Assembly: GCA_020630975.1 (NCBI GenBank)
Contig: JAHDID010000031.1
Span: 1 to 63,047 of the forward strand
From: Verrucomicrobiota bacterium
GTDB taxonomy: Bacteria > Verrucomicrobiota > Verrucomicrobiia > Verrucomicrobiales > DEV007
Length of the DNA stretch: 63,047 nucleotides
Direction: 5' to 3'
In this document: positions 1,442-58,570 of the stretch, piece after piece
How the letters are laid out: the number at the start of each line of letters is the position of its first letter
Numbering within the stretch: position 1 is the stretch's first letter
The notes under the pieces: generated by a model
The model's input: only the letters and a program-made list of their open reading frames with translations
What the model was told of the DNA's origin: nothing
Database searches by the model: none
Program-made: the position numbers and the translations under genes

Positions 1442-2794
1442 CTAATAAGAAACATTCGATGGGCTATCCTCGGTACAGCAATCCCATTCGACTGTTACTT
1501 TCCGAGACCCTGAATCAAATGCTTTCGACGCATCTCCCCAGAACCAAGGTTCCGACGTTGTAGACATTAATCTTCCAGCTGAAGGGTGCCCCCCTTTGCT
1601 CCAACTGCTGTCGTTTCTACGAGGGCCGCATGCCAAGTCTCCATTGTCGTTAAGGTAAGCAATGTCACATCTTTTGTACACCCTAATATTTCCTTCAAAT
1701 TCTATTTTGCCCTTAGAGCAACCAAAAGCAGCAGATCCTGAGCCATCTATTACAGACCCAAAATGACCTAATCTTGGCCAATATTCCCAGTAATCTTCAT
1801 CGAATTCTGTTATCTTCTCAACTGAATTACAAGGTTCGACCTTGCCTGTAATCTTTACTTCTTGGACGGTATAGGTTCTTTCTGGAATTGCACTCCAAGA
1901 AAATTCAATTTCAACGTAATGCTCGCCACAGTTCCCCTTTGAAATGAGATTGTAATTAACGGTTAACATGCCCAAATAGTCCCACTTTCCAGCTGGGTTA
2001 TTCCCCAAGAACCCATACAAATTAACCCCACCACTTTCCTCGAACGGATCCCGGCTAGGCCATCGCCCGGTTTGCGGATCGTAGTAACGAAAGCCGTAAT
2101 ATAACCATCCATTCTCTTCCTCGGACGGCTTGGTGGAGAAGCGCCATTCATTTTGCTCCGACTCAATGCCTACATGATCAGACACGTTGCCGAACGCATC
2201 ATATTGATACGCGGCCATAACATCTGAGGATTGATTGAGCATCTGACCGATATTCCCGTTGGCATCATAACACGGGTAGCGGTGCTCGTCACCATTTTTT
2301 GTGATAGCAAGGAGTCCGCCGACACCGCCTGCGCCCTGGAGGGTGCCGCTTAGGTCGCGGCCCCAGGTGAAAAAGCTGTAGGCTTTTTCACTGAGTGGGG
2401 GAGTGGAGGAGTTGGGAGGGGGGGAGGCTGATGGGCTTTGCTGCTGGTTTGATTCGACTGAAGTCGAATCTACGAGATGGTCAATTTCGGCGAGAAGGTT
2501 CCATGAGTCGTATATATAGGTGATGTCTGCGGTAGGTAGCCAAGCCCCGCTAGAGTCTGAACGATAGCTTTGCTTGGTGGTTCGGCGGCCTTGGTGACCA
2601 TAAGTGTATTCGGTTTTTGTGGAGCCGTCTTTGGCTTGTGCACGTATGAGACGGTTCTCATGGTTCCAGGTGTAGTGACGGGTATGATCCCTGAGAAGGT
2701 TGCCGTCGGCATCGTGGGTTGGATTCTCACGCAGAGGCGCGGAGACGCGGAGATCTAGTTGGGTGTACTGGTTCAGGTGGTTGTTTGTTCTTGT
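1442..2794 (-). pseudogene. 5'-truncated Rhs/YD-repeat protein, C-terminal core and tip
   Basis: The frame is open from 2794 down to the stop at 1442 (about 450 codons), but no start codon lies at the correct place. The upstream end is a stop codon at 2795-2797 that coincides with a border repeat. The translation starts with a typical Rhs motif (NHLNQYTQ), continues with YD repeats (DADGNLLRDHTRHYTWNHEN, TYGHQGRRT, YDSWNLL) and ends the core with DPQTGRWPSRDPFEESGG followed by NLYGFLGNNP. After the core, about 175 residues form a tip (roughly 1442-1970) with a different, AT-rich composition and seven or more cysteines. The first ATG inside the frame (2242) would give only 266 residues. It is probably a displaced C-terminal fragment kept as a reserve or relic of an Rhs toxin. 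I do not recognise the activity of the tip. Confidence 0.8.
2729..2756. repeat. short GC-rich repeat embedded in the Rhs frame
   Basis: The stretch GCAGAGGCGCGGAGACGCGG is internally repetitive (GCAGAGGC / GCGGAGAC / GCGGAGATC) and is read in frame as LRVSAPLREN within the Rhs remnant. Similar strings are common intergenic repeats in other bacteria, as far as I recall. Its presence between the LNQY motif and the DADGN motif of the Rhs core suggests an in-frame insertion. Confidence 0.4.
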
Positions 2795-2796
2795 TT

Positions 2797-2818
2797 ATAA
2801 GCCTGCATTGTAAAATCC
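2797..2818. repeat. module-border direct repeat, copy 3
   Basis: Third copy, TATAAGCCTGCATTGTAAAA, starting at the stop codon that closes the Rhs frame on its upstream side. The Rhs homology therefore ends at this repeat. The following 100 bases to the VOC gene hold no recognisable feature. Confidence 0.6.
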
Positions 2819-2921
2819 TTCGCTGGCAGTTGAGCTAAAGCCAGGTCAAAAGCGCTCTGTGAAGGTGGATCAGCTGACAGGGCAGAACTAGTTGAGCTCG
2901 TCACATAATAAATCAACTATC

Positions 2922-3281
2922 TCAACTGGGTGATTGGAATAAGTTAAACTTGACCCCGAATGGGTCTTCTACATAGCAACATCCTGGGCTGCCTTCCCAA
3001 AGAATCACCTGGCATCCTTTGGCTATTAATTCGGACCGAGCGACATCAACATCATCCACCAGCAATTCGAAAATAGGACCGATAATCTTATTTCCAGAAT
3101 CGTCCAATAAAGGAGGGTCAATGAATACCCTAGCATCTCCAAAAGGAATCTTTGAAGACTCATTCGGATTTTGTGGAAGTTGCATTAGGGACCTGTAAAA
3201 GTTCTTTGCTTCTTCCGGATTGTCGGTGTGAATAGCTATGTTCCGAGACGGTTTCATTTCTTTTATTCTATAAATTTCCAC
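2922..3281 (-). CDS. VOC (glyoxalase/bleomycin-resistance) family protein
   Basis: This encodes 119 residues, one VOC module of two babbab halves. Recognisable elements are the first strand and helix (NIAIHTDNPEEAKNFYRSL), the central FELLVDDVDVARSELIAKG and the closing YVEDPFGVKFNLF. Family members bind a metal and act on small molecules (lyases, dioxygenases, resistance proteins). Here the usual final glutamate ligand after DPFG is not obvious, so a metal-free or divergent role is possible and the substrate cannot be predicted. The frame starts at a GTG (3281); an ATG at 3257 (MKPSRN) is the alternative and would still contain the whole fold. It lies four bases downstream of the RDD gene on the same strand. 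Base composition is more AT-rich than in the core genes to the right. Confidence 0.75.
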   Translation of the reverse strand: MEIYRIKEMKPSRNIAIHTDNPEEAKNFYRSLMQLPQNPNESSKIPFGDARVFIDPPLLDDSGNKIIGPIFELLVDDVDVARSELIAKGCQVILWEGSPGCCYVEDPFGVKFNLFQSPS

Positions 3282-3285
3282 CCAT

Positions 3286-3840
3286 CTATCTAGGGCTACT
3301 ATCAGATGCTATTTTCATCTTACTCTGTTCTCTGACATTGATAACGTAGGTCTTTGCAATGGAATCGTGCCATCCTCTTGTCTCTGAGCCAAGGAAACTA
3401 AATGCCTCGAAGGGTATGAACCGACAAAAGGTTCGCCCGAAAATCTGCCCAACAGAAGCTTTTCTGCCGTGTTGGTTTACGACTCGTGTGCCACAAGCCA
3501 GTTTGCCGATCGTTCTTCCAAACGCGGCTTCCATGATGATGTAGTAGCCGATGTATATGGGAAACGCGATGACATACCCACCGCCCTCTGAACTAATGAA
3601 TTCGAGCATTTTTTCGCTACCAATCAACATGGCGATGATTGCCAAGATCATGCCGCCTATCATAGAGAGGCCGAGGTAGATCACGTAGTCGAGCAGAAGA
3701 GTAAGAACCCTGACGCCAGCTCCGGCGGTGTAGGGCTTTCCATCTCGGTCGAGTAGCGAGAGTTGTTTTTCGGCAGACTTAGAAGAACCCAAGGCTGATT
3801 GCGGCGTTTGGTACAGGTTTTTGTCTTCCGTTGGTGACAT
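3286..3840 (-). CDS. RDD-family membrane protein
   Basis: This encodes 184 residues from the ATG at 3840 (MSPTEDKNLYQTPQ); a longer open frame to 4071 runs into the aroG start region on the other strand and is low-complexity. After a hydrophilic N-terminus come two long hydrophobic stretches, around VRVLTLLLDYVIYLGLSMIG and YVIAFPIYIGYYIIMEAAFG. The second leads into the family motif RTIGKLACGTRVV and the charged tail (RTFCRFIPFEAFSF). These are hallmarks of the RDD domain, with a conserved Arg and Asp in the first helix. Members are small inner-membrane proteins of poorly known role; some have been linked to ion transport. It is co-directional with the VOC gene. Confidence 0.8.
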   Translation of the reverse strand: MSPTEDKNLYQTPQSALGSSKSAEKQLSLLDRDGKPYTAGAGVRVLTLLLDYVIYLGLSMIGGMILAIIAMLIGSEKMLEFISSEGGGYVIAFPIYIGYYIIMEAAFGRTIGKLACGTRVVNQHGRKASVGQIFGRTFCRFIPFEAFSFLGSETRGWHDSIAKTYVINVREQSKMKIASDSSPR

Positions 3841-5106: not shown

Positions 5107-5398
5107 TTGGGTAGGTGGCTGGTGGGCTTTGTGGGGCACTCGCTGGACGCTCGCCGCCACATTCTCTTTTTGTCGTTGGCTTGGGTTGTGGCTGGTGGGC
5201 TTTGCGGTTCACTCGCTGGACGCTCGCCGCCACTTTCTCTTTTTGTCTTTGGCTTGGGTAGGTGGCTGGTGGGCTTTTGCGGGCTACTCGCTGGACGCTC
5301 GCTGCCACATTCTCTTTTTGTCGTTGGCTTGGGTTGTGGCTGGTGGGCTTTGTGGGTCACTCGCTGGACGCTCGCCGCCACGCGTTCTCTCTTTGGGG
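5107..5398. repeat. four-copy ~74 bp tandem repeat
   Basis: Four imperfect direct repeats with a period of 73-74 bases fill the gap between aroG and the next gene (anchor GCTGGTGGGC at 5118, 5191, 5265 and 5339). Each unit contains ACTCGCTGGACGCTCGCCGC, a run CTCTTTTTGTCG and GGCTTGGGT. Fragments of the ACTCGCT-GCTCGCCGCCA core also occur near 27590 and 46373. Open frames read across the array in several phases and are artefacts of the repeat. Confidence 0.85.
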
Positions 5399-12481: not shown

Positions 12482-12525
12482 GTTAGTTGGTGGTGGTAGT
12501 AAAGATTTAGGCGGTCAGTAGTGGA

Positions 12526-12564
12526 TTGTACCCTATTGAATGCTTTCTGTACCCTATTCAATCT
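12526..12564 (+). repeat. 21 bp tandem repeat, cluster A (two copies)
   Basis: TGTACCCTATT occurs at 12527 and 12548, exactly 21 bases apart, each followed by (G/C)AAT. The second copy overlaps the 3' end of the XpaC-like gene on the other strand: that gene's stop codon TAG and its last codons (IE) are the reverse complement of the repeat. Confidence 0.95.
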
Positions 12565-13156
12565 CTTCCAATTCGCGTTCGATTTGTAGGTATTGTTCGT
12601 TTAGGCGGGCCTCTTTGGCGAGGTCGGCGACTTTCTCATCGATGTCATGGCTATCGGGGACGAGACGGCTCTGGTAGCGAGTGTTGGTCTTTCGCAGGAT
12701 CTCGCAGGTATGGTCGAGGGCGCTGTGCTGTGTAGCCTGGTCGCTCGCCAGAGATGGGGCTACGCTGTTGTATTTCTCCACCAGTCGGCTGAGGTGCTCT
12801 AGCCGCTCGGGTAGCTCTGGTAGTGGCTGGGGGTGCCCGGTGTCTGCCTGACCTAGACTGAGGCATTCGGCTAGGGTGGTGGCTAGCTGAGTGGCGGCGA
12901 GCTTGGATGGGCTATCGAGCATCGCCTCCGCGTGGATGCGAAAGGCGTGTAGCCTTTCTTGGCACAGTGCTAGGTGCTCCTCGCGGCGGGTTTGGATACG
13001 TTCGGCTCCGATGGGTAGGGTGAGACGTGTGCCGAAGTAGCCTAGCAGTGCGGCGGTGGCTCCGAGCCATAGTGGGGTGCTGAGCACGAGTGTCAGTCCC
13101 AGCAGTAGCACGGCTGCGATGATGAAGGAGATCAGCTCTCTAGCGGTGTGTGTCAT
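12554..13156 (-). CDS. XpaC-like (5-bromo-4-chloroindolyl phosphate hydrolysis family) protein
   Basis: This encodes 200 residues. Two hydrophobic segments at the N-terminus (FIIAAVLLLGLTLVL and LWLGATAALLGYFGTRLTL) are followed by a long alpha-helical, probably coiled-coil cytosolic part ending EQYLQIERELEEIE. The layout fits the XpaC family. Members were named for a phenotype on chromogenic phosphate and often sit beside TelA-like toxic-anion-resistance proteins; the biochemical role is not established. It begins four bases after the stop of the VWA gene, so the two are co-transcribed. Its last codons and stop lie inside a 21 bp repeat, suggesting that repeat insertion set the current C-terminus. 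Confidence 0.6.
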   Translation of the reverse strand: MTHTARELISFIIAAVLLLGLTLVLSTPLWLGATAALLGYFGTRLTLPIGAERIQTRREEHLALCQERLHAFRIHAEAMLDSPSKLAATQLATTLAECLSLGQADTGHPQPLPELPERLEHLSRLVEKYNSVAPSLASDQATQHSALDHTCEILRKTNTRYQSRLVPDSHDIDEKVADLAKEARLNEQYLQIERELEEIE

Positions 13157-28033: not shown

Positions 28034-28370
28034 CCGGACGCTAAAATGGTTGGTAGATGCTCTCCATGCAGTGGATTCGATATTGGAATTCACTCGAGGG
28101 AAAACTTACGATGATTACAGCAATGATCTACTACTACGATCTGGAGTCGAGAGGCAGTTCCTCATTTTAGGTGAAGCACTGAAGAGGGTGCGAGATCACG
28201 AACGTGCTTATTTTGATGCTATTACTGGCGCTGGCGATGCGGTGGCTTTTAGGAATGTGCTGTCTCATAATTATGACTCGATAGAGGATGCAATCGTCTG
28301 GGACACTATTGAAGAGTATTTGGATTCTCTTAGAGAGGATCTTAGAGGCCTAACGATGCCGCTTCTTTGA
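28026..28370 (+). CDS. hepT: HepT-type ribonuclease toxin
   Basis: This encodes 114 residues of HepN/HEPN fold. The catalytic RX4H-X-Y motif is intact: FRNVLSHNYDSIEDAIVW, with Arg76, His81 and Tyr83. Tyr83 is the residue AMPylated by MntA in characterised pairs. The N-terminal helix also matches (LKWLVDALHAVDSILEFTRG, LLLRSGVERQFLILGEALKR). Such toxins cut RNA. The stop codon is 18 bases before the menD ATG, so the pair sits inside the men gene order. The menF-menD spacing is broken by this pair and a hairpin element. Confidence 0.92.
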   Translation: MDDRTLKWLVDALHAVDSILEFTRGKTYDDYSNDLLLRSGVERQFLILGEALKRVRDHERAYFDAITGAGDAVAFRNVLSHNYDSIEDAIVWDTIEEYLDSLREDLRGLTMPLL

Positions 28371-28387: not shown

Positions 28388-29956
28388 ATGAACGCCCCTC
28401 TCGCTGCCACTATCGTCAATACTACTCTCCAGCTCGGAGTGAGAGACTATGTGGTGTGTGCGGGGGCTCGTAATGTGCCGCTGATCTCGGATCTCGCGGC
28501 TCGGGATGCCAGCGAGGCGGTGCTGTGGCATCACTTCGATGAGCGCGCTGCGGCTTTCTTTGCTCTAGGTATGGCCAAGGCTAGCCATCGTCCAGTGGCG
28601 GTGGTAACGACTTCGGGCACGGCTGTGGCGGAGCTGCTGCCAGCTGTGGTAGAGGCTTGGTATAGTGGGGTGCCGCTGATATTGATAACAGCGGATCGTC
28701 CGCCTAGCTATCGAGGTAGTGGCGCACCGCAGGCGATCGAGCAGGCCGGTATTTTCTACGGCTATGTGAGTGAGTTTTTCGATATTGAGTCACCGGGAGA
28801 AGACGGCGACTACTACCACGAAATCGCTTGGGATCGGCAATCGCCATTGCATCTGAACGTGTGCTTTTCCGAGCCTGTCGAGGAGCCAGTCGCCGAGTCC
28901 ACGACAGCCCTGAAACAGTCCACACTCGACCCAGCAGATGCCTTTGCGCCAGCAGTCGAGCTGATGCCGATGTTTGAAAAACCGGTAGCGATTCTGGGGG
29001 AGCTGGCCGAGGCCGATCGTGCAGAGGTCAGAGATTTTCTACTGCAGTCTGGGCTACCTGTCTGGTGCGAGGCGACCAGTGGTCTACGCGAAGATCCTGC
29101 TCTAGCTGCGCAGCGTCTGGTCCATGAGTCGCAGCTCGGCGCTCTGCAGCCTAGCGAGGTGCTGCGTATCGGCGGGGTGCCTAGTCTGCGGTTTTGGCGA
29201 GATCTCGAGTCTATGGATCAGATACGGGTGCTGAATTTCTCTCGAAAAACCTTTCCGGGCCTCGCGAGGCCCCAAGGCGTGCACACCTTTCCGATCGGGC
29301 GACTGGCGGAAGTGGCATTGTACCCTATTCAGGAAAAATTGTACCCTATTGAATCAAAACTGTACCCTATTGAATCCTGCCTAGATGAGCACCCCGGAGC
29401 CGAACCGACTATCGTGCGCGCGCTATCTCGTCGTATACCCGAGGCTGCAGCGGTGTTTTTAGGGAATAGTCTGCCGATACGCGAGTGGAATGCGGCGGCT
29501 GACTTTGCGGTGCCGCACCCGCACTGCTACGCTAGTAGAGGTGCCAACGGGATCGATGGCGAGCTGTCTGCCTACTACGGTATGAGTGCGGGCTATGAGG
29601 AAAGTTGGGGGATATTTGGCGATCTGACTACGCTATACGATATGAACGCGCCGTGGATAGCTGGGCAGTTGCCGGCAGGCCGCCGGCGTATCGCGGTGCT
29701 GAACAACAGCGGTGGGCGGATCTTTTCGCGGTTGCCAGCGATGCGCGCTCTGCCGACAGAGGCGATGGCTCTGGCCGAGAATCAGCATGAGCTAGATTTT
29801 TCGGCATGGGCGGAGCAGTGGCGTATGGAGTATCATTGCTGGGATGGGGCTGCTGAGACTTGGCCTGAGGTTCTAGGAGATCATGCGGTGATCGAGGTGA
29901 AGATCGATCAGCAGAAGTCTGAGGCGTATTGGGAGGCTCTGGCCAGTCGCTCATGA
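28388..29956 (+). CDS. menD: 2-succinyl-5-enolpyruvyl-6-hydroxy-3-cyclohexene-1-carboxylate synthase
   Basis: This encodes 522 residues from the ATG at 28388 (MNAPLAATIVNTTLQLGVRD); E. coli MenD has about 556. It is a thiamine-diphosphate enzyme joining isochorismate and 2-oxoglutarate in menaquinone synthesis. Seen motifs: CAGARNVPLI, HHFDERAAAFFALGMAKAS, VTTSGTAVAELLPAVVEAWY, LILITADRP, VFLGNSLPIREWNAAADFAV and GANGIDGELSAYYG, then GDLTTLYDMNAPWIA and NNSGGRIFSRLPA. The ThDP site (GDLTxxxDxN; NNxGG) is intact. Residues 311-331 (LYPIQEKLYPIESKLYPIES plus Cys) are three seven-residue units encoded by the 21 bp repeat, between the central and C-terminal domains; they keep the frame. Its stop overlaps the menH ATG (ATGA). 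Confidence 0.92.
   Translation: MNAPLAATIVNTTLQLGVRDYVVCAGARNVPLISDLAARDASEAVLWHHFDERAAAFFALGMAKASHRPVAVVTTSGTAVAELLPAVVEAWYSGVPLILITADRPPSYRGSGAPQAIEQAGIFYGYVSEFFDIESPGEDGDYYHEIAWDRQSPLHLNVCFSEPVEEPVAESTTALKQSTLDPADAFAPAVELMPMFEKPVAILGELAEADRAEVRDFLLQSGLPVWCEATSGLREDPALAAQRLVHESQLGALQPSEVLRIGGVPSLRFWRDLESMDQIRVLNFSRKTFPGLARPQGVHTFPIGRLAEVALYPIQEKLYPIESKLYPIESCLDEHPGAEPTIVRALSRRIPEAAAVFLGNSLPIREWNAAADFAVPHPHCYASRGANGIDGELSAYYGMSAGYEESWGIFGDLTTLYDMNAPWIAGQLPAGRRRIAVLNNSGGRIFSRLPAMRALPTEAMALAENQHELDFSAWAEQWRMEYHCWDGAAETWPEVLGDHAVIEVKIDQQKSEAYWEALASRS
29318..29380 (+). repeat. 21 bp tandem repeat, cluster B (three copies, inside menD)
   Basis: TGTACCCTATT occurs at 29319, 29340 and 29361. The 21 bp period equals seven codons, so the reading frame is kept and the repeat is translated as LYPIQEK, LYPIESK and LYPIESC. 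Conventional MenD proteins have no such segment as far as I know. Confidence 0.95.
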
Positions 29957-43463: not shown

Positions 43464-43473
43464 CTTCGGAAGA

Positions 43474-43511
43474 TTGTACCCTATTGAGTCAGGATTGTAC
43501 CCTATTGAATT
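43474..43511 (+). repeat. 21 bp tandem repeat, cluster C (two copies)
   Basis: TGTACCCTATT occurs at 43475 and 43496. It lies in the short convergent gap between apbE and the PSCyt1-SUMF1 gene, between that gene's stop (nine bases away) and its terminator. Confidence 0.95.
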
Positions 43512-51045: not shown

Positions 51046-51081
51046 TAAAGTTACTCCCAGCTTTGCTTCAGCCTGCTGGTT

Positions 51082-51120
51082 TTGTACCCTATTTAGTGAA
51101 AACTGTACCCTATTGAATCG
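51082..51120 (+). repeat. 21 bp tandem repeat, cluster D (two copies)
   Basis: TGTACCCTATT occurs at 51083 and 51104. It lies 27 bases beyond the stop of the kinase/phosphatase gene on the opposite strand, just to the right of the large inverted-repeat element. Confidence 0.95.
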
Positions 51121-57901: not shown

Positions 57902-58570
57902 TTACGCAGCTTCCACGTTTTCTGATTCCTTCGAATCGCTATCGTTATCACGTGGTCCTTCGCTACGAGCACCGCTGACTAGCAGTTTGCGTCCCATAAA
58001 GTCCTGATCGTGTAGTACTTCCACAGCGCGCTTTGCCTCCTCTAGGGAGCCCATTTCGACGAAAGCGAAACCTTTTGACCGCTGAGTGCGATTGTGGGTG
58101 ACGACCTCGGCGCTGAGCACATTACCGACGCCACGGAATAGATCCTCCAGATCGCTCTCGTTAGCATCGTAGTCGAGATTGCCGACATAAAGGCGAGGTG
58201 TGGTGACATCCTCGGTCTTTGGTGTGCGAGTGCGGGTCTGCTTGGTCTTGGCAGTCGCAGTCTTGGCTGGCTGCTGCGGCTTCTTGTTCTTAGCCGATTG
58301 GCCTTTGCGCTTTTTGTTTTTCTTGTTGGGATCGATCGCGCCGAAGGTCAGCGCTTTGATGATCTTCTGACCGAGGGTCAATTTCACCACCTTGGGTTTA
58401 CGGTTGCGATTGCGGTTACGATTGCGATTACGGTTTCCGCCGCCGTTTCCACCGCGGTTTTGATTGGAGTTGTTATGATTGCGCTGACCGCCACCTCCGT
58501 TGCGGTTACGGTTGCGATTGCGATTACGATTCTGGTTCCTCGAACCAGACTGATTGGATTGGTTTTCCAT
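57902..58570 (-). CDS. RNA-binding protein, RRM domain with Asn/Arg-rich N-terminus
   Basis: This encodes 222 residues. The first ~58 are low-complexity NR and GGN repeats (SGSRNQNRNRNRNRNRN, GGGGQRNHNNSNQ), encoded by repeated cgattgcgattacg-like sequence. A basic linker (LGQKIIKALTFGAIDPNKKN; KKPQQPAKTATAKTK) follows. Residues ~122-200 are one RRM: RNP2 RLYVGNLDYDANESDLEDLF and RNP1 KGFAFVEMGSLEEAKRAVEV, then DFMGRKLLVSGA. Glycine/arginine-rich tails of this kind promote RNA binding and phase separation. Related small RRM proteins are cold-inducible in cyanobacteria and are common in Verrucomicrobia. The C-terminus is acidic. Confidence 0.92.
   Translation of the reverse strand: MENQSNQSGSRNQNRNRNRNRNRNGGGGQRNHNNSNQNRGGNGGGNRNRNRNRNRNRKPKVVKLTLGQKIIKALTFGAIDPNKKNKKRKGQSAKNKKPQQPAKTATAKTKQTRTRTPKTEDVTTPRLYVGNLDYDANESDLEDLFRGVGNVLSAEVVTHNRTQRSKGFAFVEMGSLEEAKRAVEVLHDQDFMGRKLLVSGARSEGPRDNDSDSKESENVEAA

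Follow-up and report, generated by a model that had tools for sequence, protein, structure and literature searches.

The stretch of DNA analysed here (the window, 63,047 nucleotides) is contig C9 of the draft genome G000, which comprises 7,142,027 bases, and carries the menD gene together with several short tandem arrays (Table 1). The menD open reading frame encodes 529 aa when read from a TTG at 28367 and 522 aa from the ATG at 28388, and its product scores 288.4 bits against the MenD profile TIGR00173, for which the cut-off is 244.2. Within the gene, TRF reports a tandem repeat at 29319-29376 with a period of 21 bp, 2.8 copies and a score of 81, and the protein read from 28388 contains ALYPIQEKLYPIESKLYPIESCLDEH; repeat search and translation agree with the first-pass annotation, in which 29318-29380 was described as three 21-bp units translated in frame as LYPIQEK-LYPIESK-LYPIESC at residues 311-331. 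With up to three mismatches allowed, the 21-mer is matched three times in the window and never in 100 shuffles of it. The sequence GTACCCTATT is present in the window in nine exact copies, which form four tandem sets, each at 21-bp spacing. Repeats of other kinds in the window are a 73-bp unit in 3.7 tandem copies (TRF) at 5107-5381, overlapping minus-strand ORFs, and six-, twelve- and eighteen-base repeats of the TTGCGA type at 58398-58531, within the minus-strand ORF 57902-58570.

Table 1. Coordinates of menD and of the tandem arrays in the window
Feature	Position	Strand	Basis or context
menD, 522 aa	28388..29956	+	2-succinyl-5-enolpyruvyl-6-hydroxy-3-cyclohexene-1-carboxylate synthase; TIGR00173 above cut-off, solved MenD structures match
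MenD array, three 19-bp units, period 21 bp	29316..29376; unit starts 29316, 29337, 29358	+	TRF, PWM, translation
Two-unit array	12524..12563	+	second unit holds the TAG stop (12554-12556) of minus-strand ORF 12554-13156
Two-unit array	43472..43511	+	between convergent predicted genes
Two-unit array	51080..51119	+	27 bp from the 3' end of a minus-strand gene

The MenD model, built with 30 aligned sequences, has a mean pLDDT of 85.5, which falls to 57 at residues 311-320 and 67 at 321-330, a low-confidence stretch between domains, and it places helices at 303-308, 326-334 and 339-349 and coil at 309-325. The repeat segment is therefore plausible as an inter-domain loop; the surface loop proposed earlier would correspond to the modelled coil between the two domains and not to residues 326-334, which are modelled as helix. 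MenD matches are tallied in 55 of 56 genomes, those in G002 and G003 being weak only, and the comparison covers the best 30 of the 55 genomes with a match, comprising 26 genus members (this one included) and four from outside the genus. None of these 30 sequences, the window's own included, contains an internal stop. A pair of units at 21 or 22 bp is found in the linker of 14 of the 30 sequences (13 at stricter thresholds), corresponding to 14 of the 26 genus members and none of the four outsiders, and relatives thus differ at this segment as had been anticipated; no further unit pair lies outside the linker in the 42,126 bp of the 30 genes. The mean linker length is 44.6 aa with units (n=14) and 46.4 aa without (n=16), which, together with the pair being found in so many genus members, speaks against insertion into the enzyme, and the occupation of the same place in over half of the genus members examined argues against dating such an event later than the conservation of the enzyme. 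The segment is one member of a family of DNA sites that is specific to the genus, and at the MenD place only the spelling of the unit is species-specific.

This family is abundant in G000, where TGTACCCTATTNANTC has 237 copies and its reversed control has none. A weight matrix applied to 1.66 Mb of the genome (window included) finds 191-194 units by threshold and none in the reversed sequence. The 91 arrays in these 1.66 Mb comprise 9 single units, 64 doublets, 17 triplets and one array of four units, a density of about 55 per Mb that extrapolates to roughly 390 per genome. The unit is 19 bp long, GATTGTACCCTATTGAATC, and has the architecture of a quasi-dyad in which two 8-bp arms are separated by CCT. 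Neighbouring units are spaced 21 bp apart in 100 of 101 cases and every pair has the same orientation, the dialect of this genome being ACCCTATTGA at a 21-bp period and in one orientation. Aligned with each other, the 64 two-unit arrays define a sharply bounded element of about 41 bp with AAAA in the spacer and flanks nearly without information. They also carry linked variants, which suggests subfamilies, and no target-site duplication was found at the G000 arrays. The sharp borders, the common spacer and the linked variants suggest copying of whole doublets in preference to independent point mutation. Covariation between the arms of a unit is absent in two other species of the genus, G024 (P 0.84) and G007 (P 0.19), and slight in G000 (3.94 vs 3.84 of 8, P 0.02), where none of the units is a perfect dyad; this pattern points to recognition as duplex DNA and not as a hairpin. 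A hairpin or RNA-level signal was accordingly rejected on the little or absent arm covariation and the absence of strand bias.

Across the genus, ACCCTNTTGRNTC has at least 20 matches in 27 of 33 genomes, and in each of 23 genomes outside the genus it has 0-4, like controls. Fewer than ten matches are found in six genus genomes, three of which are less than 80% complete (G003, G016, G018) and three at least 91% complete (G011, G021, G026), and the latter three indicate that the array site is dispensable. The exact 16-mer of G000 recurs among 55 relatives in G024 only, in two copies, and a tandem-pair scan of an 84,980-species collection returned 98 stretches, of which the 80 listed are all titled as Verrucomicrobia or Verrucomicrobiota MAGs, some by order or family. 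G024 is the nearest sampled species, and its dialect is ACCCTGTTGA at a 22-bp period in mixed orientation. It uses GTACCCTGTTGAATC at 22 bp; the genome has 299 exact motif matches against 0 in controls, and its neighbouring units lie 22 bp apart in 48 of 49 cases, with 10 of the 49 inverted. As the period is kept despite inverted pairs, the unit is the 19-bp quasi-dyad itself, arm-CCT-arm. The strings GTACCCTATTGA and GTACCCTGTTGA occur 130 and 0 times in 1.66 Mb of G000; in G024, 0.40 Mb contain 3 and 25 copies. Either dialect extends across the whole genome of its species. The consensus in G007, GACCCAACCCTGTTGGGTC, is a perfect dyad, with a weaker matrix that gives 88 matches vs 4 in the control at a threshold of 13; the period is 22 bp in both of the other species sampled in bulk (G024, G007).

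Comparison of gene places between G000 and G024 rests on 49 reciprocal-best gene pairs from the fetched parts of both genomes, in which an array lies within 150 bp of, or inside, 8 G000 genes and 15 G024 genes. Four pairs are array-labelled in both species vs 2.4 expected (P 0.19), two of the four having less than 35% identity. Array places are thus mostly not common to the two species; those in MenD and DnaE2 are common, and at both each species uses its own dialect. A 53-bp intergenic gap of G000 (C40:69959-70012) has as its counterpart between the same gene pair in G024 (L206) 164 bp with several units and a hairpin. An unusually dense cluster of units with several inverted pairs lies among sulfatase and DUF1592-type genes of G024 (L246:6900-19500, contig C219), and one of its units matches the A-type core exactly, a spelling of which the G024 genome has few other copies.

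The arrays of G000 are mostly intergenic (80 of 89). Of these 80, 30 have a 3' end no more than 30 bp away and 16 a 5' end, random intergenic points falling at about 5% for each. In other records, some arrays recur just upstream of genes that reading of the protein starts suggests to be pyrF-like, thiE-like and permease genes, with four records for each. Array orientation is not correlated with GC skew or gene strand (69 arrays). Arrays are spaced 10-18 kb apart, and the 82 G000 arrays with at least two units are overdispersed, with a coefficient of variation (CV) of 0.54 vs 0.91 for random placement (0 of 5000 randomisations) and one of 73 spacings below 5 kb where 22% are expected. The 23 such arrays of G024 behave likewise (CV 0.45 vs 0.88, P 0.0002; 0 of 20 spacings below 5 kb), and the 12 of G007 show a trend only (CV 0.56 vs 0.83, P 0.07). 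Overdispersion in G000 (64 arrays) and G024 (23) holds under nulls confined to predicted intergenic gaps, and both species are still overdispersed when single units are included, with G007 then not overdispersed (CV 1.02 or 1.16). Purging of close direct repeats by recombination was considered and rejected, as pairs less than 10 kb apart number 8 in the same and 10 in opposite orientation in G000, and 12 and 8 in G024. The 18 of 165 ten-kb bins of G000 with a GC content below 0.51 contain none of 90 arrays (P 3e-5 under uniform placement). Three long array-free stretches of this genome (C33:8268-83940, C39:81938-119056 and C15:128889-165335) have lower GC and foreign-looking codon use and are likely islands.

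Several proteins besides MenD bear arrays. Of the 26 KdtA orthologues examined (31 genomes have a match), 10 have a unit pair in one and the same loop, and no pair lies elsewhere in the gene; the KdtA of G000 itself is without a unit pair in that loop, and loops with units are somewhat longer as judged by eye. The DnaE2 linker has arrays at the same place in G000 (two units) and G024 (four units) and measures 98 and 90 aa in these species vs 43-68 in the other non-truncated rows of the alignment (25 rows). In G024, an array also lies within a MidA-type methyltransferase, whose alignment with G000 shows no gap there. In MenD and MidA the sites overlie an existing loop, and in DnaE2, less so in KdtA, length has been gained. 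Other array-bearing proteins include those of the AcrB type, the ImuB type and DUF1549. Other GC-rich hairpin repeats adjoin arrays in the same permissive places, in the DnaE2 linker of L281 and at about 1520-1585 of L206.

By direct reading, the G000 unit contains one stop codon per strand (TGA, TAG), and in the G024 unit the ACCCT strand alone carries a stop. Of 19 distinct intragenic arrays in G024/JARGOZ, 16 take the orientation that is free of stops (binomial P 0.004, two mixed arrays being assigned by majority), a bias that any model requiring arrays to leave genes intact would predict, since the gene finder itself requires an open frame. With the same finder, arrays lie inside predicted ORFs in 4 of 75 cases in G000 vs 11 of 49 in G024 (P 0.009), or 3 of 89 vs 8 of 49 when restricted to clearly internal arrays (P 0.017); the intragenic calls include 6 of 9 in G000 and 3 of 11 in G024 at predicted N-termini, perhaps wrong starts, and all coding and intergenic counts are approximate, the finder being a codon-usage script with a predicted coding fraction of 0.66. 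Four of the 91 arrays in G000 encompass a predicted gene's stop codon, including the one in the window at 12554. The suggestion that frame keeping explains the 21-bp period loses its footing here, as that period is all but invariant in G000 though most of its arrays are intergenic, and as intragenic arrays are more frequent in the species whose period of 22 bp shifts the frame than in the one whose period of 21 bp keeps it.

The account that we tentatively prefer is that the arrays are duplex-DNA address sites for a putative sequence-specific protein and are used like DNA uptake sequences, which we regard as a substantial possibility that falls somewhat short of probable. Such a protein would bind adjacent units, which lie at a fixed period of two helical turns, on one face of the helix, and the arrays would act as chromosome-wide address marks, most likely for self-recognition in DNA uptake and recombination. 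The site would spread by drive or selection, its dialect would change along with the receptor, and MenD would simply tolerate one array in a variable inter-domain loop. Recognition of the sites as duplex DNA by a protein can fairly be inferred, and uptake as their use is the weak step. This account is supported by the copy numbers in G000 and G024, where controls give none or next to none, by the fixed period, strand indifference, overdispersion and absence from low-GC DNA, by the dialects and the pairs in permissive loops, and by the features in common with published uptake sequences; it is weakened by the copied appearance of the G000 doublets, by the slight arm covariation in that species, by G007 not being clearly overdispersed, by the dispensability of the site within the genus, and by a unit size, tandem arrangement and spacing that differ from those of uptake sequences. 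ComEC is present in all 42 good genomes, in the genus and among outsiders alike, and for this reason does not discriminate the uptake reading. A more doubtful extension is that the arrays may represent a new class of mark, consisting of phased tandem dyads placed roughly regularly over native DNA and kept by a putative genus-specific protein, with dialect and helical period rewritten wholesale between species and with tolerance in essential enzymes.

We rank an uptake-like use first, followed closely by chromosome organisation, with a REPIN-like mobile element third. An architectural or segregation protein that binds tandem dyads cooperatively, marking topological domains of about 10-18 kb, would suit the overdispersion in G000 and G024, the strand indifference with two-turn phasing and the absence of arrays from low-GC bins in G000; it appears unlikely, if well worth weighing, as match numbers range from background to hundreds within one genus and the places in G000 and G024 are mostly not common. 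Operators of an ordinary regulon would also be tandem dyads, and the arrays just upstream of the same genes would fit them, but the 3' ends are favoured more than the 5' ends in intergenic G000 DNA (30 vs 16 of 80), arrays lie inside unrelated genes and no common function is seen, making this reading improbable. Local slippage within menD, the repeat expansion that the first-pass annotation proposed, would explain tandem units in frame and is contradicted by the same units recurring hundreds of times elsewhere, of which the MenD array is one copy, and by a linker no longer than that of relatives; hardly any weight can be given to it, and a MenD-specific segment that lengthens the linker and is limited to menD is at odds with the same genome-wide copies and linker lengths.

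The remaining alternative, a non-autonomous mini-element akin to REPINs or small dispersed repeats and copied as a two-unit element of about 41 bp by a putative enzyme, is rather unlikely as well, and it draws its strongest argument for mobility from the sharp borders, common spacer and linked variants, to which can be added the dominance of doublets, the longer DnaE2 linker in the two array-bearing species and the presence of Y1 transposase matches (16 in G000, 12 in G024). The strongest points against plain random transposition are the overdispersion and the low-GC absence; arrays show overdispersion in two species, in contrast to the random extragenic distribution reported for REPIN doublets. 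Little or no arm covariation, the lack of visible target-site duplication and the absence of a gap at the MidA-type array point the same way. Moreover, no Y1 match is found in G002, G009 and G014 despite 46, 193 and 23 core matches, respectively (G002 and G009 being incomplete), and Y1 number does not follow repeat number across the genus. Three of the 16 Y1 places in G000 were examined; the closest array lies 1.9 kb away at one, 4.6 kb away at another and outside the 1.5-kb flanks at the third, and no unit lies directly beside the match. At C31:168428-171407 (L178), two arrays lie 921 bp apart, the closest pair seen in G000, and 1.9 and 2.8 kb from a Y1 match. No link to Y1 transposases emerged from these counts and places, though a RAYT-driven REP system may yet be involved. 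Three other origins were set aside. End sites of Mu/Tn7-type transposons are 22 bp long, and PF09299 (Mu-type transposase) is found in 0 of 33 genus genomes; the element and tandem patterns are without match in viral contig, phage and plasmid collections, arguing against carriage by phage or plasmid; and a likeness of the arms to integron attC boxes was dropped on account of the 3-bp central spacer.

If address sites of this kind are confirmed, they would provide a further independent case of a self-marking genome with hundreds of dialect-specific sites, beyond Neisseriaceae and Pasteurellaceae and in another phylum, or, should the rival hold, a new chromosome-organising system. Congeners differ by one core base and one bp of period, a switch that makes the co-evolution of site and reader testable, and the permissive loops of the MenD, KdtA and DnaE2 proteins illustrate how housekeeping proteins bear such sites. 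No earlier report of these repeats was found among the literature matches listed, in a search that leaves most subscription-journal papers outside, and six core strings searched in the literature gave one unrelated match.

Among known systems, the DNA uptake sequences (DUS) are described in PMC2397512, PMC3630211 and PMC3116915, taken jointly, as occurring in dialects and at permissive sites, as absent from genes acquired recently, as spaced in keeping with the size of conversion fragments and as carrying a stop codon in one frame; counts of 1543-3770 are given for 10-mers, one species has overlapping pairs with dyad symmetry, and REPIN doublets are described there as randomly distributed in extragenic space. 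The arrays resemble the DUS of Neisseriaceae and the USS of Pasteurellaceae in reaching hundreds of copies at least, in lying in both orientations and at permissive places, in differing in dialect between species, in being absent from acquired DNA and in having non-haphazard spacing and a stop codon in one frame, acquired DNA being judged here by GC and codon use in G000 only. The copy numbers and species-wide dialects of G000 (237) and G024 (299 exact, controls 0) correspond to this pattern, as do the permissive places and the absence from acquired DNA, the latter again by GC and codon use in G000 only. DUS and USS are single sites of about 9-12 bp and, to our knowledge, are not known as fixed-period tandem arrays, unlike the 19-bp quasi-dyads described here, which lie mostly in arrays at 21 or 22 bp; lacking the single short site, the family is not classed as DUS. 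Its spacing of 10-18 kb is also about ten times that of DUS.

The arrays are similar to REP, BIME and REPIN sequences in being imperfect palindromes with hundreds of copies, mostly extragenic and with the doublet as the unit, and differ from them in little or no arm covariation, in direct repeats at a fixed 21 or 22 bp and in overdispersion. A hairpin with paired arms is not indicated by the covariation test in G000, G024 and G007, and the doublets are not randomly placed in extragenic DNA in G000 and G024, with a trend only in G007. The small dispersed repeats of cyanobacteria, which are very small, dispersed and, by their titles, mobile, are comparable in these respects, and the tandem phased units, genome-wide dialect and overdispersion found here set the present family apart from them. 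Rickettsia palindromic elements are larger, structured inserts; as with these elements, repeat DNA is translated in frame inside proteins, and unlike them, the arrays leave the MenD linker at the length that it has in relatives without units.
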